Shown here piece after piece: positions 14,828 to 41,050 of a stretch of DNA of 55,868 bases; the stretch's first letter is position 1, and the number at the start of each line of letters is the position of its first letter. Both the position numbers and the translations under genes were made by a program. Origin of the DNA: a virus; IMG/VR virus record IMGVR_UViG_3300046542_000211, positions 1 to 55,868 of that record; one strand, given 5' to 3'. The notes beneath the pieces were generated by a model. It was not told where the DNA came from and searched no databases. It saw nothing but the letters and a program-made list of their open reading frames with translations.

Positions 14828-15153
14828 TGCGCCTCCTTCAGCTTTTCTGCCGCCGAGACCCTGATCACCATGGCAACCATCGCGTAGAGCGCAGCCAGGA
14901 TCGGAAACCCTGCGTAGATGAGCGCTGCCACGTACATGCAGTGAATGGAAATGCCGATAACCTTCTTGGCGATCGACAGACCTTGGATCTTCTCGGCGAT
15001 CTTGGCATCCATCCCGAATATCCCGAGGAACATCAAAGCAACCATGATGCTAATCAGCCAGAAGGCGAACGTCCTGACATCTGAGGCTCCGAACACAAGA
15101 CAGGCGAGCAGCGCGGCATCAAAAATACGAATTACCAATTGATTCGCTTTCAT
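14824..15153 (-). CDS. 109-aa polytopic membrane protein
   Basis: Three or four hydrophobic segments span the protein: IRIFDAALLACLVFGAS, FAFWLISIMVALMFLGIFGM, VIGISIHCMYVAALIYAG and ILAALYAMVAMVIRV. It ends in a charged AAEKLKEAQ tail. Start and stop overlap neighbours by four bases. Function unknown; an inner-membrane exclusion or stress role is conceivable. Confidence 0.6.
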   Translation of the reverse strand: MKANQLVIRIFDAALLACLVFGASDVRTFAFWLISIMVALMFLGIFGMDAKIAEKIQGLSIAKKVIGISIHCMYVAALIYAGFPILAALYAMVAMVIRVSAAEKLKEAQ

Positions 15154-16334
15154 TGGTTGCCACCCTTTCCGCCCTTAGCTTTCGGCCAGCCTTCAAGGTC
15201 AAGTTCGGCCTCGCAGTGTGGGCAGTTGCCGTCAGCGTCGGCGCGGTTCGCCATGGTCACAGGGGCGTGACAGCTCCAGCACGGAAAGGATTCAAGCTTG
15301 GCCTTTTCAATTTCCGCGATCCGGCGCTTGGCCTTGTTGCCGCTGCCTCCGCCGAACGACGACAGGAATTCGTCAGCCTCAGCTTCGGTCATTGCCACGT
15401 ATGGCTTCGGCGCATTCATCACGCCAGTCTCGACAGCCCGCTCGATCACAGGCTCGTCGGCAGCCTCAAACGCGGCGTAACTGACAAAGTCGAAGCCCCA
15501 GCCCGGCGCGATCTCGCAGCGACCGAAGTCGTCGTACTGACCTTTCTCGTAGAAGAAGTCGAAGGTGTAGATGCCGTCGCCCTGCTCAAGCTCATCAGGC
15601 AGGTTCTCGCGAAAGTCGCGCTGAGCCGCCTCAAGCTGCTCGACACAGATGCGCCCGCGCACGGCGCAGATGAATGGGTCGTCGCCCTTCTGGAAAAACA
15701 CCTCAGCGAGCACGTTCCGCTTGCCGTCTTCGGAGAATGCCGCCAGCCCATCCCGGAAACCGTCAGCCGCAGCGGTGGTCATGTCGACGGCGGTGTACTG
15801 GGCTGCCGGCTCGTCATCGAGCGCAAGAAGTGCGGCCTTCTCGTCTTCCGGCATCTTGGTCGCGACGGCTGTGATCTCGATAGCCGTTGCCCACGGGACT
15901 GGCCGTCCATGCACGCTTGCCCATGCCTGGATCAGCTGCCTGACAACATTGCTCTCGTCCAGCTGGGCGCGCAGGCCAACCAGTTCATCGTTCATTTCGC
16001 GGATAACGTCGCCAGGCGCACCGGCACGCTCAATCTCGGCGCAGGCCTCCTTTGCATCATCGTAGGCAGACTCACCGTCCGCACCGTGAGTACCATTATC
16101 ACCATCCCACTCCAGCGCGCCGGGGATGGCCAGGTGGGCGGGCTGTGCATCCAGAGGTCCTTCTTTAAAGTTCGGCTCAGGATCTACCGCCAGGATCACG
16201 AAACCGTCGCCATCTTCCATCACCTCGGCGACCGTGCAGAACAGGCGATTGCCCGCGTCATGATCACCCGTCGACACGTCAACGCTGACTGTTTTGCCCT
16301 CGATGAGAGCTGCAACTTGCTCTACCAGATTCAT
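15150..16334 (-). CDS. unrecognised 394-aa acidic protein with C-terminal zinc ribbon
   Basis: MNLVEQVAALIEGKTVSVDV starts an N-terminal beta-rich part. A middle segment (about 110-250) contains FRDGLAAFSEDGKRNVLAEVFFQKGD. The C-terminus has CWSCHAPVTMANRADADGNCPHC, a CxxC...CxxC zinc ribbon common in phage early proteins. No enzyme motif recognised. It is probably an early protein cotranscribed with the HTH gene upstream, since the start overlaps that stop. Confidence 0.65.
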   Translation of the reverse strand: MNLVEQVAALIEGKTVSVDVSTGDHDAGNRLFCTVAEVMEDGDGFVILAVDPEPNFKEGPLDAQPAHLAIPGALEWDGDNGTHGADGESAYDDAKEACAEIERAGAPGDVIREMNDELVGLRAQLDESNVVRQLIQAWASVHGRPVPWATAIEITAVATKMPEDEKAALLALDDEPAAQYTAVDMTTAAADGFRDGLAAFSEDGKRNVLAEVFFQKGDDPFICAVRGRICVEQLEAAQRDFRENLPDELEQGDGIYTFDFFYEKGQYDDFGRCEIAPGWGFDFVSYAAFEAADEPVIERAVETGVMNAPKPYVAMTEAEADEFLSSFGGGSGNKAKRRIAEIEKAKLESFPCWSCHAPVTMANRADADGNCPHCEAELDLEGWPKAKGGKGGNQ

Positions 16335-16537
16335 TTATTCACCCCGTAACGAACCAAACACTCCAGCGCGTACTGCGCCGGGTAGGACCACTTGATTTTG
16401 CCGCCGAGCCAGTCGCCGATCGTTCGGTGACCGACGCCCAATGCCGCGGCCGCTTCCTTCTGCGTCATCCCGGACGATGCGATCAGCTGCCTGATGTGCG
16501 CCGGGTCACTGCTTAACTTGCTTGGGTCCAGCTTCAT
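16331..16537 (-). CDS. 68-aa HTH protein (XRE-like)
   Basis: ATG at 16537 overlaps the stop of the methyltransferase remnant (ATGA). The core AHIRQLIASSGMTQKEAAAA, then LGVGHRTIGDWLGG, is a clear helix-turn-helix. The C-terminus (YPAQYALECLVRYG) resembles small phage regulators of the Cro/C1 type. It may bind DNA in the early region; its operator is not identifiable from sequence alone. Confidence 0.7.
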   Translation of the reverse strand: MKLDPSKLSSDPAHIRQLIASSGMTQKEAAAALGVGHRTIGDWLGGKIKWSYPAQYALECLVRYGVNK

Positions 16538-17266
16538 GCGGCTTTCTCTACTGCTTTCACGGATTCGTTGATGAATCGGCCCCACTGGTCGCCCATGGCG
16601 GCAGCGATGCCGGGGTAGGTCTTGGATCGCTCAAGCCAGCGATCTTGGCGCGGCGGCAATCTGTTTTGGCCGGTGTCGGTCTGGTTGTCCCATCGCGGCA
16701 GGGTCTTTCCGTTCGGTTGCAGGCACCAGCGCGGCTGGACGTAGTCGGCAGGATCGATCACCAGCTTTGGCGTGCCCTTGGTCAGCCAGAAGCCCGTGCC
16801 CTTGCTGGCGTCGTCGCCGAAGTGGTACGGATGAACGACCTGATCAGGCGGTCGAATTGCAGTGTTGATGGCCGACGTCCCCGGGTTCTCGATCGCGACC
16901 GGAAACGGCAGATCAAGCAACATGCGGAAGTTGTCCAGCTCGATGGCTTGTGCGGCTCGGCGCTCGGCGCTCGGCGCCATAGAGCTTTTCCGGGTTTGGC
17001 TTTTGGTGGTAGCCAACGCCCGGATATTTTTCAAAGTTGGCATCCATCAAGGCCCAAGCTCCCGACGTCGTCAGGTAGGTGCACATCGGATGCAGCACGG
17101 CGAAATCCCACCCCATCGCCAGCGCTACCCATATGTCGCACTGCAAGTGCTTGCTCTGCTCGCCGCGCGCCGGAAGCTTGTCGCAGGTCCAGACGTCGTG
17201 CCCATGCTGCTCAAAGGCTTTTCGGGTCAGCTCGCACGCCGAGTACCCAATCAGAATCTTTGCCAT
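16534..17266 (-). pseudogene. DNA methyltransferase-like gene, frameshifted by a 7-bp repeat
   Basis: The 5' part from the ATG at 17266 gives MAKILIGYSACELTRKAFEQ...GWDFAVLHPMCTYLTTSGAW. The 3' part in another frame gives AIELDNFRMLLDLPFPVAIENPG...DRWLERSKTYPGIAAAMGDQWG. Both match one phage family annotated as DNA cytosine methyltransferase, in which a PPC loop and ENP motif are typical; here PPC reads PMC. The frames switch within three tandem copies of TCGGCGC at 16957-16977. With two copies the gene would read through for 241 aa. It is either a pseudogene, a phase-variable gene or a sequencing variant. Confidence 0.85.
16957..16977. repeat. three tandem 7-bp repeats (TCGGCGC)3
   Basis: The repeat lies in the methyltransferase-like gene exactly where homology changes frame. 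Removing one unit restores the frame (Y-G-A-E-R-R-A-A-Q-A). Unit length is not a multiple of three, so copy number sets on or off states. Confidence 0.85.
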
Positions 17267-24049: not shown

Positions 24050-24253
24050 TTATGCGCGCTGTTTGGCGATGAACTCAGGCAGCTCACCGGTCCTGCGGTA
24101 CTCTTCGAGAATGGCCCGCATGGCGATTCTAGCCATTACGCTGTGCAGCTGTCCTTCCTTGTGGGCCATTTCTTTCCACTCGTCATACTCTTTGTCGACT
24201 AGTCGAACCTTTATCTGTTTTTCGTGCATCAGTTCTTCTGGTACGTATGCCAT
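24050..24253 (-). CDS. 67-aa ribbon-helix-helix-like protein
   Basis: ATG at 24253 with GGGG upstream. KQIKVRLVDKEYDEWKEMAH, then HSVMARIAMRAILEEYRRTG, fits the strand-helix-helix pattern of small RHH regulators. It is second in the leftward operon after cro, where lambda has cII. No CII-type sequence is seen. Confidence 0.6.
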   Translation of the reverse strand: MAYVPEELMHEKQIKVRLVDKEYDEWKEMAHKEGQLHSVMARIAMRAILEEYRRTGELPEFIAKQRA

Positions 24254-24277
24254 ATCAACCCCTTGGTTTTACGATGA

Positions 24278-24481
24278 TCAGTCTGGTGCTGCTTTCTTTT
24301 TTGCAGGAGGGAAGCTGCTTAGCTCGGTCCCCTCCACCTTTCCGTCTGGCAATATATTGATAAATATCTTTCTATCTGACGCTGCTGCCCGAATAAGCGG
24401 CGGATGACTCATGCCCAGCATTCTTGCTGCCTGGGCTGGCCCAACCTGGGCGACGTACTCTTTCAGAGACATCTTTTCCAT
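24278..24481 (-). CDS. cro: Cro repressor (lambda Cro family)
   Basis: 67 aa. SLKEYVAQVGPAQAARMLGM, SHPPLIRAAASDRKIFINIL and PDGKVEGTELSSFPPAKKKA follow lambda Cro closely: LKDYA..FGQTKTAKDLGV, then NKAIHAGRKIF, then the DGSVYAEEVKPFPSNKK arm. It is the first gene of the leftward operon and is preceded by promoters carrying palindromes in their spacers. It should lower early transcription and favour lytic growth. Confidence 0.9.
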   Translation of the reverse strand: MEKMSLKEYVAQVGPAQAARMLGMSHPPLIRAAASDRKIFINILPDGKVEGTELSSFPPAKKKAAPD

Positions 24482-24511
24482 ACAGCGAACCCCTTGCCAG
24501 TTGATAGCTTT

Positions 24512-24540
24512 ATTGTACCTTCGGGGTACACGGCTTTCAA
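24512..24540 (-). promoter_or_regulatory. leftward cro promoter with 15-bp Cro-type operator
   Basis: On the minus strand TTGAAA (24540-24535) and TACAAT (24517-24512) are 17 bp apart. The palindrome GTACCTTCGGGGTAC (24515-24529; arms GTACC/GGTAC, 5-bp centre) lies in the spacer and -10. A related palindrome sits in the facing promoter. Confidence 0.82.
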
Positions 24541-24553
24541 CGACACCATGCTC

Positions 24554-24581
24554 AGTTTAGTCCCTATAGAGGGGCTGGCAA
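24554..24581 (-). promoter_or_regulatory. second leftward promoter with operator site 6 as spacer
   Basis: TTGCCA (24581-24576) and TAAACT (24559-24554) are 16 bp apart. The operator-family palindrome AGTCCCTATAGAGGGGCT (24559-24576) fills the spacer exactly, so this promoter would be shut by the second repressor rather than by Cro. Confidence 0.72.
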
Positions 24582-24606
24582 GTAAAAAAATATTCACACC
24601 AAGCCC

Positions 24607-24635
24607 TTTACAGACTCGTACCTCGGGGGTACAGT
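24607..24635 (+). promoter_or_regulatory. rightward early promoter with 15-bp Cro-type operator
   Basis: TTTACA (24607-24612) and TACAGT (24630-24635) are 17 bp apart. GTACCTCGGGGGTAC (24618-24632) lies in spacer and -10, mirroring the cro promoter. It should drive the recombination/integration operon to the right. Confidence 0.82.
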
Positions 24636-24650
24636 TCAATCCATCGAGAC

Positions 24651-24668
24651 GGTCCCTTGCAAGAGACC
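24651..24668. promoter_or_regulatory. 18-bp operator palindrome, site 7
   Basis: GGTCCCTTGCAAGAGACC, just downstream of the expected start site of the rightward promoter, where a bound protein would block elongation. Confidence 0.8.
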
Positions 24669-24678
24669 GAAAACGAAC

Positions 24679-24695
24679 CGCTCTTTACACAATCT
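24679..24695 (+). promoter_or_regulatory. boxA-like antitermination sequence
   Basis: CGCTCTTTACACAATCT closely resembles lambda nut boxA (CGCTCTTACACA) and rrn boxA (TGCTCTTTAACAAT). It lies at the right place, early in the rightward transcript. I do not see a clear boxB hairpin after it and no N-like gene is recognised. Confidence 0.5.
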
Positions 24696-25126
24696 GCGCA
24701 ACACACCGTCAAGTGGGAAAGGCCGCTGGCATGTTCATAGGTAGGAACCTCCCTGAGCATAGCTGTACCGGCCTCGGTAGCTTGACGGATTGCAACGAAT
24801 TAGCGCCCTGAGCTTCGGCTATGAGGGGTGCCGGACCTCATGCGGTGTGCCTACTTAACCGGGCGCCAGGGGCTGTACGCCGCATGTTGTATTGACCAAT
24901 GACCATCCAGCAACGCTGATCGAGCCTGGATGAACAGGAAGCCCCGATGCCAACCAACGACAGACGCGCCAGGCCCTGCAATCAGCAGCGGGCAACCGGC
25001 AACACCGATGACGCAGCAATCCAGGCCGGTCGCCAGTAGCGCGGCCTGGACCCTTTCACCAGTGCCGATTCGATGAGTCGGCAGTGGGAAACCAACTACT
25101 ACCAACGCAAGCAGGGGTGCAAGCAC
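24696..25126. other. leader region without a convincing gene
   Basis: About 430 bp follow the rightward promoter. A perfect inverted repeat ATGAGG...CCTCAT (about 24821-24842) and several G+C-rich stem-forming stretches are present. Open frames on both strands have no ribosome site or have improbable composition. A cI gene is absent. The stretch may be a structured leader or encode a small RNA. Confidence 0.5.
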
Positions 25127-31733: not shown

Positions 31734-32915
31734 ATGGCTGCGAAGCGCGGGGTGCGTGCGGCATCGAAAAGCAGTATCGAGATCAGCTTTATGGTCGACG
31801 GCAAGCAGTGCCGGGAGCGCCTGCCGCTGGAGCCTACGCCTGCCAACCTGAAGCGGGCGCAGCAGCAGAAGGCGTCGATTGATCTGGCGATTCACCGGGG
31901 CGAGTTTGAATACGCCGAGGCGTTCCCCCGGTCGAAGCGGGCGGCGTCGGCTGTCGGCCAGTCGGGACAGGTGCCGCTGGGCCAGTACCTGGAGGAATGG
32001 CTTGAGCGCAAGGCCGGCATCCTGAAGGCATCCACGCTGGACGGTTACCGCAAGATCGTTGCGGGGGTGCTGGCCCCTGCGCTGGGCAGCCTGGCGCTGG
32101 CATCGGTCACGCGCAAAGAGGTCAAGGCGGCCATGGCCAAGATGTCGGCGACGAACAAGCGGCTGGCCAACGTGCAAAGCTGCCTGCGCTCGGCCCTGAG
32201 CGATGCCGTAGACGACGAACTGATCGAATCGAACCCACTGGCCGGCTGGACGTATTCAGTGAAGGGCAAGCCGCGAACCGAGGACGAGATCGACCCGTTC
32301 AGTCCTGACGAGCAGCGCGCAATTCTGGCGGCGGCGACCGGGCAGTATCGGAACCTGTTGCAGTTCGCATTCTGGACCGGCCTGCGCACGTCGGAGCTGG
32401 TAGCGCTGGAGTGGGGCGACATTGACTGGCATCGCGGGGAAGTGAGGGTGTCGCGGGGGTTGACGGCGGCGGCCAGCGAGGCAGAGACGCCGAAGACAGC
32501 GGCAGGGGTACGCAGTGTGCGCCTGTTGCCCATGTCGTTCGAGGCGCTGAAGGCCCAGCGCGAGCACACCTATATAGAAGGGAAGGCTGTTTTCCACGAC
32601 CCGAGGCACAACCGGGCATTCAACGGTGACCAGGAGATCAGGAAGTCATTCTGGACGCCGACCATCCGCCGGGCAGGCGTGCGCTACCGGAACCCGTACC
32701 AGACCCGGCACACTTACGCATCCATGATGCTGAGCGCGGGCGAGCATCCTATGTGGGTGGCCAAGCAGATGGGGCACGCATCCTGGCTCATGATTGCGCG
32801 GGTATACGGGCGCTGGATTCCAACCGATGGCGACTCGTCGGGGGATAAGGCGGCGGCGATGTTTGGCGGGGCCACGCAAGGCGATGATCGGGCCAGATAC
32901 CAATCATCGAAATAG
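31734..32915 (+). CDS. int: tyrosine recombinase (phage integrase)
   Basis: 393 aa. The N-terminal arm-binding part is DUF3596-like (SIEISFMVDGKQCRERLPLE, residues about 15-60). The SAM-like core-binding domain is at about 80-165. The catalytic domain has Arg in TGLRTSELVALEWGDID near 222, a TRHTYASMM (H/R) motif near 325, GHAS near 346, and the nucleophile Tyr in ARVYGRW near 358. It inserts phage DNA at a host att site and is the last large gene of the rightward operon. No att core can be fixed because both flanks here are phage DNA. Confidence 0.95.
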   Translation: MAAKRGVRAASKSSIEISFMVDGKQCRERLPLEPTPANLKRAQQQKASIDLAIHRGEFEYAEAFPRSKRAASAVGQSGQVPLGQYLEEWLERKAGILKASTLDGYRKIVAGVLAPALGSLALASVTRKEVKAAMAKMSATNKRLANVQSCLRSALSDAVDDELIESNPLAGWTYSVKGKPRTEDEIDPFSPDEQRAILAAATGQYRNLLQFAFWTGLRTSELVALEWGDIDWHRGEVRVSRGLTAAASEAETPKTAAGVRSVRLLPMSFEALKAQREHTYIEGKAVFHDPRHNRAFNGDQEIRKSFWTPTIRRAGVRYRNPYQTRHTYASMMLSAGEHPMWVAKQMGHASWLMIARVYGRWIPTDGDSSGDKAAAMFGGATQGDDRARYQSSK

Positions 32916-36269: not shown

Positions 36270-36821
36270 TCAGGCCAGAACTTTCAGCGCTGCCTTATAG
36301 AAGGCCTCGCGCTCTGCCAGGCCATTCAGCCCGCCATTGACCCGACGAGTGATCCCTTGGAAGTCACCCTTATCAGCCAGAGCGTTCAGGCTGCGCGAAT
36401 TCCAGAACCAGGCCGCCGACTTGCACGCCCACTCGGCCTGCTCGAGCAGTTCAGGCGTGCGCAGAAGGCGGTCATCGCCGAACAGGGCTTTGCTGCACGC
36501 GAGGTAGTTGTCGCGGCCGGTGATCTGGATCAGGCCACGGCCGCGGTACTTCTGGCCGTCGCCGTCAGCCTGGGGCGTATTGCCCAAGCGAGCAGCCAGC
36601 GTCCCGGTGTCGTACTTGCTCAGGTACTGGTCGCCGCCCAGCTCGCGCACGTAGCGGAACTGGCCGGACTCATGGCCGACCTGGGCAATGAAGGCTGCCA
36701 TGCGCAGCCGCGTGTTGATCTGGTATTTATCCATAGCCAGGGTGAGCGCGGACGCAAAAACGCCGGCTTGCTTGCCGGCGCTCGGGAGGATCTGCAGCAG
36801 TTGCTGCGATGTGATGGGCAT
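36270..36821 (-). CDS. GH19-type endolysin
   Basis: 183 aa from the ATG at 36821 (MPITSQQLLQILPSAGKQAG), with GGAG upstream. The catalytic Glu region is MAAFIAQVGHESGQFRYVRE, followed by YRGRGLIQITGRDNYLACSK and the later AAWFWNSRSLNALAD. It is a GH19 chitinase-fold lysozyme as in many Pseudomonas phages, and cuts peptidoglycan during lysis. No signal peptide, so a holin is required. It is the final gene of the leftward late operon and is far from the holin genes. Confidence 0.92.
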   Translation of the reverse strand: MPITSQQLLQILPSAGKQAGVFASALTLAMDKYQINTRLRMAAFIAQVGHESGQFRYVRELGGDQYLSKYDTGTLAARLGNTPQADGDGQKYRGRGLIQITGRDNYLACSKALFGDDRLLRTPELLEQAEWACKSAAWFWNSRSLNALADKGDFQGITRRVNGGLNGLAEREAFYKAALKVLA

Positions 36822-36826
36822 ACCTT

Positions 36827-36860
36827 TCTCCAGGCGAAAAAAAGCCCGCGCGTGACGGGC
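36827..36860 (-). terminator. terminator-plus-ribosome-site module upstream of endolysin
   Basis: The minus strand reads GCCCGTCACGCGCGGGC, seven T, then GCCTGGAGAAAGG and the start codon. A hairpin, T-run and GCCTGGAGA are repeated upstream of the fibre and tape measure genes. Confidence 0.75.
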
Positions 36861-36977
36861 GTGAAGCCGAAAAGCTACTATTGGCCAATTTAGCCTCGGC
36901 CAAGGCAATGCTTTGCTGCGAAGGTACCCACAGAAACTGAATTTTCAGACTTACTTAAATACAGCGCGGAAAGAAAA

Positions 36978-38309
36978 ATGGATTTTAAGCAAAGCCTAAT
37001 CATCACAAAGATAGAAACTGGTCAAAGCAATATCAAGTACGCGATAGACCTCCCCAAATCTGGATCGCCTTGCGACGCTAGCAATCTTTACATAGGATTC
37101 TGCGGATGGATTTACAGTCTTGATGGAGCGCCTGTTAGCTTTGTGTTTAGCCATATGCCAGAGGCTAATTTTAGTCCGAACAGAGACCGTCCAGATGTCC
37201 AGGCGTTGTTCCAGGGTGCTCCACTTAAGTGCGGCGCAAGGTATCCTATTGATTATCAGGGATCGTTTAAAATTGGGGCAAATTGCGGAGGCAAGATATA
37301 TTGGCTAGCTGAGGCGAATTTATCAAACTCAAATGCAAAGGTTATAGTTGGTGGTCAGGGACACCTATTTCTTGCCAATGATACAAACGAAAGCATTAAT
37401 CAGTTTATTGGAAAAACACTTATTCCAGACGATGTCATAGGCAAGTGGGGAACGTATTTTGACGCACTCAATTCTTGGTCCTTGCGATCACTGAAGCCTT
37501 TCACGTTCATGGTCGCACCAGCGAAAGAATATATTTACCCTGAGCACTACCATGAAAAAAAGGCAAGCATAACCCCAATAGAACAGTTTTCGGTGCACTT
37601 TTCAAAAATGGCCAACCTCCTGAATCCAGAGGCAGAACTGGTCAAGGATAAAGAGTTCGCATATTTCAAAACAGATTCCCACTGGAATGACTACGGAGCA
37701 TCACTAGCTGCTGCCGCTTTCTGTCGAAGGGCTGGATTTGTTTACGAGCCCCCGAACGTTGAATATGTCGTAAAGCAGTTTGCCGGGGATCTAGGCTCAA
37801 AACTCACACCCCCAAAAACCGAAAGCGCTCTATTAGTCAGCGACATACATAGGCTTATCAAGCATAAAGTATTTGATAATAGCGTAGCGAATAGGGGGAA
37901 CATTGCAGTTTATGAGAACCCTAACGCAGCCAATAAAAAAACCATCATGATATTCGGAGATTCTTTTTCCGTATTTTTGGCGAATAGCCTTTCACACTCT
38001 TTCTCCAGAGTAGTTAGGATTATTTCAGGAGCCGACATAGATTGGTGCGCTGTAGATTCTGAGCGCCCCGATCATTTATTGATCGAGTTAACCTCAAGAT
38101 TCTTGATCCGGGCGCCGAGCAGTGGATTCTCAATATCCAATGAAATAAAGAAAAAATACTCGCTAATGGATGCCTCAACATTGCAAAACCTTGCGCAAAT
38201 TTTGAAATCTCATCCCACTTCAAAAGGTAATTTCCACTTGGCGGCGTGTCGCGAAGCTATGAGCGGTTTAGCTCCAGAAATCCAACAGGAAAACCAGCTA
38301 GAACTATGA
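36978..38309 (+). CDS. AlgX/SGNH-like acetyltransferase-fold protein (moron)
   Basis: 443 aa, ATG at 36978 with GGAAAG upstream. Residues about 115-385 resemble the SGNH-like catalytic domain of AlgX/AlgJ: FFDALNSWSLRSLKPFTFMV, the TDSHWNDYGASLAAAA motif (Asp/His) and IFGDSFSVFLA (nucleophile Ser in GDSxS). AlgX-type proteins O-acetylate alginate. No signal peptide is visible, unlike AlgX. The gene is A+T-rich, on the opposite strand to the late genes and flanked by terminators. These are signs of a recently acquired conversion gene that could modify host surface polysaccharide. Confidence 0.8.
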   Translation: MDFKQSLIITKIETGQSNIKYAIDLPKSGSPCDASNLYIGFCGWIYSLDGAPVSFVFSHMPEANFSPNRDRPDVQALFQGAPLKCGARYPIDYQGSFKIGANCGGKIYWLAEANLSNSNAKVIVGGQGHLFLANDTNESINQFIGKTLIPDDVIGKWGTYFDALNSWSLRSLKPFTFMVAPAKEYIYPEHYHEKKASITPIEQFSVHFSKMANLLNPEAELVKDKEFAYFKTDSHWNDYGASLAAAAFCRRAGFVYEPPNVEYVVKQFAGDLGSKLTPPKTESALLVSDIHRLIKHKVFDNSVANRGNIAVYENPNAANKKTIMIFGDSFSVFLANSLSHSFSRVVRIISGADIDWCAVDSERPDHLLIELTSRFLIRAPSSGFSISNEIKKKYSLMDASTLQNLAQILKSHPTSKGNFHLAACREAMSGLAPEIQQENQLEL

Positions 38310-38532
38310 ATTGAAGATAGCCGCATTACCGGTCTCAGCAGGATCGGTAGGCGTCTTCCGCGAGACTAGCCCAGAAGCGCGAGAGGATGTCACGGTCTCT
38401 TTAAATTGCCGTCATTTATTTTCTCCAGGCATAAAAAAGCCCGCTCGGAGCGGGCATTCTTCAGGTACAAAAAAACCGATCAAGGCGGCTGACTGTTGCG
38501 ATTGAGTCATATTGGGCTCAGGCGGAATAATG
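38310..38532. other. gap between moron and fibre gene
   Basis: This holds a terminator module and, on the minus strand, a truncated reading frame of four codons (ATG-ACG-GCA-ATT-TAA at about 38413-38399) placed where the module would start a gene. An in-frame 32-codon frame through the hairpin overlaps it. It is likely a scar left when the moron was inserted between the fibre and endolysin genes. Confidence 0.5.
38421..38455 (-). terminator. terminator-plus-ribosome-site module downstream of fibre
   Basis: GCCCGCTCCGAGCGGGC is followed on the minus strand by TTTTTTATGCCTGGAGAA. It ends the tail fibre transcript and is homologous to the module upstream of the endolysin; the two copies flank the moron. 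Confidence 0.8.
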
Positions 38533-41007
38533 CTAGGCCCCATCTAGCAGAGCCAATCGAGCCTCAAGGCGCTGAATTGCGCGATTAAGACGCTCAGTTT
38601 GAGCAGCTAGAACTTCTTCGTAACGGACGCCGTAACGATTGCCGGCAGCGACGTATGGTTGCATCACATTGCCGTCTTCGTCTTTGATCTCTGGCTGTTC
38701 TGGCCACTCATCGTAGCAGAGCAGGCCATAATCGAAGGCATCCAGCCCTTCCGACTCGAAAGCCTCCTTGACTCGTTGGGCGGAAACGCCGAAGTGCCAG
38801 CGCGCCCCATCACCTTTTATCTCCACTGCATCATTGAACTTGTACTGTATGCATTTGACTTTGGCCAATGCTTCCAGGCAAGCGTCATCAATAGGTCGAA
38901 TCTGCTGTTTGGTGCGCTCGTCTGAGGTGTTGATTGTACCTGTCGCGGAATAGACAACAGACCATAGGTTGCTCGACAGGCCAAGCGACGGGCCATTAGT
39001 CGTCTCGGGATAAAGGGAAGTCGAAGAAAAGTACAGCCGTACCGTCTCGCCTGTTGATTTTCGCACCGACCAATCCCAGCGAGACGCCGCAGTCCCTGAA
39101 GCAAATGCAGAGGTTTGGTACAGGCGAGTTTCACCCAATACAACTTCAGCTCCTGAGTTGTTCCCGTTCCATGTGTCGTATTTGAGTAAGGTGTTGAGTC
39201 CAGTTGTAGCGCCGCCACGCACCCCCTGCATGAGACAAGGACCATCTACAGAATACTGGCGATGCGTTGCGGAACTGACGTAGGAGGCCATCCCAGAAGT
39301 GGAAGAAAGGTGCCAGCCTACTTTCATACCAAACGGCATGGCCACTGCTTCATCAGTGACCAGGGAGTTATTGTAGAAAATGATCCCTCGGTTAAACTTT
39401 TTGCCTGCGGGGATTACACCCAAAGCAGCAGTAGAATCGTAGTCACCGATAGCACTTGCCCAATAAGCACAAGTGACCCCAGACGTCTCGCCAGGTTGCT
39501 GATAAGGGTTATTAGAGATCAGCGGTGCGTAGTTGAACGTGGATACCTCGCAGCCAAACGCATTGCCGGTGCCTGGTAACGCCCGAATCCCTTCGCCGTA
39601 CAGCCCCCAAACGGTTTTTGGTGTGGTTACGTTGTCGTTGTAGCCTTGGCCGGCGACACCGATACAGGCTTGGTCAGCACCATCGCGACCTGACGAGTAA
39701 GAGAACCCAGACACGCCGCCCGCCGCACGGTTAGACGCACCCATAAGCTGCGCTGCAAGTACGCGGCCAGTTTTCTTTTGGCTGGTGTAAGCAGAATCGC
39801 CCACGTACAGGGTGGTGTACTGATCGATACCACTGAAGCGCATAACCGTACCGGTCAGGTAACTGGTATCGGATTGGTACGACGGCGGAACACCAGGCAG
39901 ATCAAACATCTCAGCTCCAGCCTCAAGCTTCCACAAGGCGGCCGGGGTAGCCGTGGTGAGATACCAATTGCCTACTGGAACATGCACCGGAGGAGTCTTG
40001 CGAGTGCCATTTTGCTTGGACAGTGCATAGTTCGCCGCAGCAGCAAACGCGACATCGCAGTTCTGGCCACTCACGGCACCGAACTTCACGACATCAATAG
40101 TAGAAGTATCGACACGTTGCCAAACCACCCCGTTAGTGCTGATGATGGTCACACCACCATCATCAACATACCCCCCCACAACGCCAAGGCTCTTAAACGC
40201 CCCGGCGATCCCTTTCTTGGTAATGACTACTCGGTCAGCCCGACCTGAGTAACTGCGCAAGGCTGCATAATCGGCCAGCTTCTTGCCTTGATCCAACTGA
40301 GAGCCGACAGTTTCACCGTCCCAGCCAACCTTAGTCGCGCCCTTAGCAGGGTCAGTGGCGTCCTGGATGTCGGCAATCGCCTGAGACCGCGCCACGTCCG
40401 CGCTGAGCCAATCGGAATTAATTTTCCCGCCCGCATCTGCCAGAGGGATTTTCCCAGGGGCCGGGGCAATAGTTGCAGTTCCGCCAGTCACAACAGCGGC
40501 CGCATTCAGAGCACTGAGAGCAGCACTATCAGCGTTGATCTGCGCTGACGCGCTATCCGCCTCGACTTGCTGCGCGAGCGTCTCCACAACAAGCCGATCG
40601 GCGCTGCTGGATTCCGCATTCTCGGCCGAAATCTGCTCTGAAAGACCGGCTGCGACCTGGCTTTGAGCGGCCGCAGAGGCGCTGGAGGTCGCCGAGGCTT
40701 GGCTTGTTTGGGCGGAGCCGGCGGAAAGCGAAGCGGCATCCTTGGCGCTTACCGCCACCACAGAGGCCGAAAGGGTCTCGTCGTGCGCTTGCTCTACCTC
40801 GGTCGCGCGAGCCAGAACCTGGGCAGTTTGCGCGCTGACGGTTGCCGCCTTGGTTGCGACCTGATCGGCGTTATCGTCAACCTGGGAAGCCAAGGCAGAG
40901 ACTTCGACAAGGTCGCTGGCTGTTGCATCCCGAGCGTCTTGGATCTGCCCGAGCATTTGTACGGCGGCGTCAATCTCTGGGCCGGTATGGGCGCTGTTGT
41001 AAGCCAT
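38533..41007 (-). CDS. tail fibre/spike with S74 chaperone domain
   Basis: 824 aa from the ATG at 41007 (MAYNSAHTGPEIDAAVQMLG). Residues 20-190 are an Ala/Ser-rich trimeric coiled coil. A beta-helical receptor-binding region follows from about 270 (VDVVKFGAVSGQNCDVAFAA). The C-terminal 130 residues are a Peptidase_S74 intramolecular chaperone with the self-cleavage Ser in TSDERTKQQIRPID. A chaperone of this kind trimerises and then cuts itself off. It is the host-range determinant and is directly upstream of the moron. Confidence 0.92.
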   Translation of the reverse strand: MAYNSAHTGPEIDAAVQMLGQIQDARDATASDLVEVSALASQVDDNADQVATKAATVSAQTAQVLARATEVEQAHDETLSASVVAVSAKDAASLSAGSAQTSQASATSSASAAAQSQVAAGLSEQISAENAESSSADRLVVETLAQQVEADSASAQINADSAALSALNAAAVVTGGTATIAPAPGKIPLADAGGKINSDWLSADVARSQAIADIQDATDPAKGATKVGWDGETVGSQLDQGKKLADYAALRSYSGRADRVVITKKGIAGAFKSLGVVGGYVDDGGVTIISTNGVVWQRVDTSTIDVVKFGAVSGQNCDVAFAAAANYALSKQNGTRKTPPVHVPVGNWYLTTATPAALWKLEAGAEMFDLPGVPPSYQSDTSYLTGTVMRFSGIDQYTTLYVGDSAYTSQKKTGRVLAAQLMGASNRAAGGVSGFSYSSGRDGADQACIGVAGQGYNDNVTTPKTVWGLYGEGIRALPGTGNAFGCEVSTFNYAPLISNNPYQQPGETSGVTCAYWASAIGDYDSTAALGVIPAGKKFNRGIIFYNNSLVTDEAVAMPFGMKVGWHLSSTSGMASYVSSATHRQYSVDGPCLMQGVRGGATTGLNTLLKYDTWNGNNSGAEVVLGETRLYQTSAFASGTAASRWDWSVRKSTGETVRLYFSSTSLYPETTNGPSLGLSSNLWSVVYSATGTINTSDERTKQQIRPIDDACLEALAKVKCIQYKFNDAVEIKGDGARWHFGVSAQRVKEAFESEGLDAFDYGLLCYDEWPEQPEIKDEDGNVMQPYVAAGNRYGVRYEEVLAAQTERLNRAIQRLEARLALLDGA

Positions 41008-41016
41008 GTGTCTTTT

Positions 41017-41050
41017 CTCCAGGCACAAAAAAGCCGCCCATAAGGACGGC
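41017..41050 (-). terminator. terminator-plus-ribosome-site module upstream of fibre
   Basis: GCCGTCC-ttat-GGGCGGC, TTTTTT and then GTGCCTGGAGAA before the fibre start at 41007. Same module as at 36827, 38421 and 48406. Confidence 0.78.

Follow-up and report, generated by a model that had tools for sequence, protein, structure and literature searches.

Seroconverting phages are best known for AT3 membrane acetylases, MBOAT-SGNH pairs and Gtr systems. In phage D3 of Pseudomonas aeruginosa, the seroconversion genes iap-oac-wzy(beta) lie between the tail-fibre gene and the endolysin. The Pseudomonas phage JBD44, whose receptor is the O antigen (PMC9112912), encodes an MBOAT protein (gp41) and an SGNH protein (gp40) beside its endolysin. 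The characterised AlgX, AlgJ and PatB proteins are extracytoplasmic enzymes that have an MBOAT protein as donor (PMC9487903, PMC9558356), and in the permuted AlgX family the block carrying the Asp and His residues precedes the Ser block (PMC9487903). Our search of the literature, partial in coverage, found no signal-less AlgX-like phage gene described.

The window analyzed here is a 55,868-base IMG/VR virus record. It encodes a tyrosine integrase (phrog_1; 31734-32915, plus strand), which marks the phage as temperate, together with portal, head-morphogenesis and DnaC-like proteins, and was therefore assigned to a tailed phage with a temperate lifestyle; in the phage collection searched, only Pseudomonas phages matched its DNA closely. 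An open reading frame on the plus strand (36978-38309), encoding a protein of 443 amino acids (P0001), lies between the endolysin (GH19-type chitinase/lysozyme, phrog_181; 36270-36821) and a tail fibre in which a domain match identified a C-terminal Peptidase_S74 (endosialidase chaperone) domain (38533-41007), both of which are on the minus strand. The G+C content of this frame is 43.7%, compared with about 60% for the window. The initial annotation had described an A+T-rich AlgX/SGNH-like accessory gene (moron) between fibre and endolysin, contrary in orientation and low in G+C, and all of these features were confirmed. The ATG at 36978 is the earliest start available to the frame, with none upstream. 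It is preceded by what may be a weak Shine-Dalgarno-like sequence (GGAAAG, 36968-36973, plus strand), and a promoter search found no sigma-70-like or strong promoter directly upstream of 36978. Judged from relatives and from the sequence module described below, the predicted endolysin start is the minus-strand ATG at 36821 and not the longer frame's start at 36908. Elsewhere in the window, a stretch of lower G+C (about 50-52%) occurs at 24063-24811, with two plus-strand open reading frames, near a switch in gene direction.

Pfam, alignment, an AlphaFold model, Foldseek and hydropathy were combined to characterize P0001 as an AlgX/AlgJ-like SGNH protein. Pfam ALGX (PF16822) matched residues 176-250 at 29.5 bits against a cut-off of 26.5, and a profile search returned AlgJ, a DHHW protein and PatB1; NCBIfam and PHROGs returned no usable family, and a domain search found no Acyl_transf_3 membrane domain in P0001. 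The protein comprises an N-terminal beta domain (about residues 1-117) and a circularly permuted SGNH domain with predicted catalytic positions D233, H235 and S329. Both motifs named in the initial annotation are present, with TDSHW (D233, H235) ahead of GDSFS (S329), the order seen in the permuted AlgX family. In an alignment of 31 members H235, W236, G327 and S329 were invariant and D233 was conserved in at least 90%. The nucleophile block reads GSSS instead of GDS in most bacterial relatives, while the window's own branch retains GDS, and the chemistry within the family may therefore have drifted.

The AlphaFold model of P0001 (mean pLDDT 90.7) shows the fold of AlgJ, PatB1 and AlgX, in agreement with the SGNH assignment made initially. 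Its best PDB matches in Foldseek were the DHHW protein 4nzk, AlgJ 4o8v, PatB1 5v8d/5v8e and AlgX 4knc (E 1e-10 to 4e-7, probability 1.00), and all eleven matches with E <1e-3 were DHHW, AlgJ, PatB1 or AlgX structures. The N-terminal beta domain has no match, which keeps the TM-scores modest (0.3-0.4 by query, up to 0.6 by target). No phage protein in the viral fold library BFVD matched the model; the sole strong viral structure match, A0A1V0SDU0, is AlgX/AlgJ-like and comes from a giant virus (Indivirus ILV1).

Neither a signal peptide nor a transmembrane segment was found in P0001. The maximum 19-residue hydropathy within the first 70 residues was at most 1.25 in P0001 and all 30 aligned relatives, leaving 31 of 31 members without an N-terminal hydrophobic segment, whereas the SGNH proteins of JBD44 and of a related locus (L022), both paired with an MBOAT, have such a segment (1.96 and 2.24, respectively). 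A profile search gave no MBOAT or AT3 match anywhere in the window, and no MBOAT/AT3 partner was found in the homologue-encoding plasmid loci of E. coli and Thioclava. Among 55 bacterial loci of the family, MBOAT, sought with a profile built from two phage sequences that highly divergent MBOATs could escape, was found only at the locus of the most distant relative (L142), in addition to a weak AT3-like match at another locus (L133). As far as its sequence allows, P0001 is classified as a signal-less, partner-free AlgX-like protein and not as a typical AlgX.

The nearest plasmid homologues of P0001 (33-35% identity) are hypothetical proteins encoded on plasmids of E. coli and Thioclava, within capsule operons of the ABC-transporter type. 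A genome scan for the family yielded the 55 bacterial loci mentioned above, and within about 8 kb of these a homologue of the E. coli operon's large GT2 was present at 37, one of its methyltransferase at 23 and one of its nucleotide-sugar dehydrogenase at 15. A GT2 domain was found in 20 of 59 neighbour proteins sampled from bacterial loci. KpsM/KpsT-like genes occurred at only 2 of the 55 loci, and therefore no tie to one export route is established. A homologue from Pseudomonas viridiflava (L088) is likewise located in a polysaccharide locus. P0001 and its relatives thus appear to form a family of AlgX-like proteins without a signal, found repeatedly in polysaccharide loci across many Pseudomonadota and unannotated where annotated records were read. 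Three loci (L002, L003, L004) are large E. coli plasmids with ABC-transporter capsule/polysaccharide operons and rfbABCD, two of them typed as IncY (P1-type replicon).

A tblastn search of annotated phage genomes detected no copy of the gene at 1e-5, and at a loose limit it recovered only a distant JBD44/DO4-type group. A single-sequence scan of IMG/VR gave nothing, and an alignment-based scan gave five loci. In three of these (L143, 70% identity; L144, 67%; L145, 67%, partial) the gene is divergent and the adjoining endolysin is only about 51% identical to that of the window. A fourth contig (L146, 37%) carries the gene after an S74 fibre, and the fifth (L147, 22%) has a distant copy between a lysozyme-like open reading frame and an S74 fibre. 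In phylogenetic analysis the window protein grouped with L143 and L144, then with the P. viridiflava homologue, and L146 clustered with the E. coli plasmid proteins. The family would therefore have entered phages on two or more occasions, unless transfer ran from phage to plasmid. Nei-Gojobori dN/dS was 0.19 for L143 against L144 and 0.07-0.12 against the window, where dS is close to saturation; the range of 0.07-0.19 indicates purifying selection on the gene.

The slot between fibre and endolysin was surveyed in the best 80 endolysin relatives (L008-L087, 913 kb) and the 19 nearest tail relatives (L148-L166). Far from standing in the same place in all relatives with phage-like composition, the gene was absent from all 80 and all 19 of those read, and its composition is foreign. 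The slot was otherwise occupied in many relatives. Among the 80 endolysin relatives, 12 of 18 AT3 open reading frames, found with a profile made from this site's own examples and including the near-identical L026 and L028, lie no more than 3 kb upstream of the endolysin; further occupants are MBOAT, DUF2142, GDSL and weak GT87 proteins. In the nearest tail relative (L148), 5.5 kb of tail genes match the window at 96%, and the N-terminus of the fibre is common to both (82%); the rest of its fibre differs and its endolysin is 42% identical to the window's. In its slot (15092-16953, minus strand) are genes for a LicD protein and for a cytidylyltransferase-like one, both on the opposite strand and of 42-44% G+C, which suggests that the phage brings a phosphoryl-type decoration to a surface glycan. 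Other tail relatives have, in the fibre-lysis gap (about 15.1-16.6 kb), a DUF6270 protein (L149), DUF6492 proteins (L152, L156) or a polysaccharide pyruvyltransferase (L166). Judged by context, the DUF6270 and DUF6492 families may be glycan-modifying enzymes. The fibre-endolysin slot is a hotspot for surface-glycan-modifying cargo, an already known kind of site. The role in altering host surface polysaccharide that had been proposed for the gene is supported by these other occupants and by the homologues in bacterial polysaccharide loci. More AT3 acyltransferase open reading frames were observed on the downstream side of the endolysin, at a distance of about 0.6-2.3 kb (L012, L029, L069, L074), which suggests that the far end of the lysis cassette is another cargo site.

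The gene is flanked by direct repeats of 36 nt (36825-36860 and 38420-38455; 83% identical, 1595 nt apart). Both copies are terminator-like on the minus strand and consist of a hairpin (stems at 36844-36860 and 38439-38455), a T-run and CCTGGAGAAA, so that homologous terminator modules are present on both flanks as first reported. One copy stands immediately ahead of the endolysin ATG and the second lies on the fibre side; a pattern search located a third, comprising T-run and CCTGGAGAAA, ahead of the fibre ATG (41014-41032, minus strand). The T-run/CCTGGAGAAA pattern had 3 exact matches in the window versus 0 in 100 shuffles. About 30 of 80 related loci have the same module ahead of the endolysin, with or without an insert, and in four (L033, L034, L060, L068) it stands ahead of a different gene. 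A clear fibre-side copy is missing from L143-L145, where readable. We considered whether the two flanking modules mark a moron cassette, and this was ruled out by the third copy ahead of the fibre and by the presence of the module ahead of the endolysin in many relatives that lack this insert. The modules are generic to the late genes of the phage and therefore give no evidence for a special moron cassette; the gene sits between two ordinary gene-start modules.

As a separate observation, a module of hairpin, T-run, GCCTGGAGAAA and ATG repeats ahead of successive late genes, also in many related phages. With its terminator-like hairpin abutting a ribosome-binding site, the module may be something other than a plain terminator, such as a target of antitermination or an element of the mRNA 5' end. 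Directly after the fibre-side module, the four-codon gene stub that had been noted on the fibre side was found at 38401-38415 on the minus strand (ATGACGGCAATTTAA, encoding MTAI and a stop codon). A pattern search of IMG/VR for its parent gene gave only six unrelated matches. Our preferred reading of the stub is that it is the leftover start of whichever gene came after the fibre; it could be the beginning of a lost endolysin, as some relatives begin ATGACGATTAC, or of another gene.

The interpretation we favor, and hold to be probable, is that the gene is lysogenic-conversion cargo encoding a signal-less AlgX/AlgJ-like SGNH enzyme, probably a cytoplasmic glycan O-acyltransferase that changes the surface sugars of the lysogen. 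In the mechanism proposed, a signal-less SGNH gene would have moved from a gammaproteobacterial polysaccharide biosynthesis locus into the fibre-endolysin slot of temperate Pseudomonas-type phages. We infer that its product transfers a group instead of hydrolysing one, that this group is acetyl, that the protein acts in the cytoplasm and is expressed in the lysogen, and that phage adsorption is affected. The protein would most likely remain in the cytoplasm and O-acylate a polysaccharide precursor ahead of export, the group added being probably O-acetyl taken from acetyl-CoA. The O antigen or capsule of the lysogen would be altered as a result, and adsorption of the same or competing phages changed. 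The best-studied candidate for a cytosolic capsule acetyltransferase, WcbI, counts against this mechanism, having a different fold and no in vitro activity (PMC4104973).

A different mechanism, implied by the initial annotation, would be that of a periplasmic AlgX/PatB-like O-acetyltransferase fed by an MBOAT or AT3 donor of the host. In its favor, P0001 resembles the AlgX/AlgJ/PatB1 proteins in fold and motifs, and in JBD44 this slot is filled by an MBOAT+SGNH pair. WecH can stand in for PatA with PatB, so an SGNH domain is able to work with an unrelated donor (PMC9558356). However, the sole start of the frame permits no signal peptide, none of the 31 family members has one, and across the window, the plasmid loci and about 8 kb around nearly all family loci an MBOAT/AT3 partner was not found, the MBOAT at L142 and the weak AT3-like match at L133 excepted. 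This part of the earlier annotation was not supported, and we regard a periplasmic, donor-fed enzyme as distinctly unlikely. Most SGNH enzymes are esterases. A deacetylase stripping acyl groups off the host glycan, either from intracellular precursors or as a virion-associated receptor enzyme, would suit a gene that adjoins the fibre, and capsule-deacetylating SGNH tail fibres are common in Klebsiella prophages (PMC13123978). We nevertheless consider it unlikely here: the gene lies on the strand opposite the tail genes and is foreign in composition, its product has no fibre or trimerisation domain and the fibre is a separate S74 protein, the relatives are found in biosynthetic loci and not in tail modules, and the permuted AlgX-type core is typical of transferases.

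The remaining two explanations concern what the protein does in a polysaccharide locus and whether it does anything at all. Steady linkage to one type of GT2, an N-terminal beta domain without a match and GSSS in place of GDS in most relatives would be in keeping with an enzyme of other chemistry, transferring a different acyl or a non-acyl group, or with a non-catalytic glycosyltransferase partner. Against this, the invariance of S329 and H235 and near-invariance of D233 point to catalysis, and GDS is kept in the window's own branch, making such a role quite improbable for P0001. A non-functional passenger, captured by chance and decaying, might be expected from the few contigs that carry the gene and from its foreign composition. 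We give this very little credence, given that the frame is intact in the window, L143 and L144, that dN/dS is low, and that the position beside the endolysin is repeated in other phages.

Building on the favored interpretation of a cytoplasmic O-acyltransferase, we tentatively suggest, as a possibility that may well prove wrong, a broader picture. A cytoplasmic, partner-free AlgX-like family would O-acylate precursors before export, and temperate phages would swap the receptor-binding part of the neighbouring fibre along with such soluble decorating enzymes (AlgX-like, LicD with cytidylyltransferase, pyruvyltransferase, DUF6270/DUF6492), exchanging recognition and alteration of the receptor as one cassette. 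The locus suggests that the slot also gathers soluble enzymes that decorate at the precursor level, which would widen the known prophage routes to disguise the host from other phages. An AlgX-like family with neither signal nor MBOAT partner is open to biochemical testing, and the fibre-endolysin gap offers a practical marker whose scanning should uncover a library of glycan-modifying enzymes.

Compared with described systems, the window resembles D3 in being a temperate Pseudomonas phage with cargo in the fibre-endolysin slot, cargo that in D3 modifies the O antigen. D3 carries a membrane AT3-SGNH acetylase, a polymerase and an inhibitor peptide, in contrast to the single soluble AlgX-like enzyme of the window. 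The JBD44 pair occupies the same slot beside the endolysin, on the fibre side and in contrary orientation, and its SGNH protein is about 25% identical to P0001; unlike P0001, it is paired with an MBOAT and carries a membrane segment at its N-terminus. With AlgX and AlgJ, which act in alginate O-acetylation, and with PatB1/DHHW proteins, P0001 shares the permuted SGNH fold, the D-x-H-W motif and the catalytic serine block, but it lacks their signal and partner and has an extra N-terminal beta domain. The hypothetical proteins from capsule loci on E. coli plasmids (WP_187439418.1, WP_325909130.1) are closer, being signal-less and of the same architecture with 33-35% identity over about 90%, although theirs is a full ABC-transporter capsule operon and the phage gene stands alone. 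WcbI, a putative acetyltransferase of the Burkholderia capsule that binds CoA and is thought to acetylate it, is similarly soluble, but was reported as a novel fold and not as SGNH (PMC4104973). Lysogenic conversion of a surface glycan from this slot is of a known kind, and what sets this phage apart is the soluble AlgX-like enzyme, a type without a close match in the annotated phage genomes searched.
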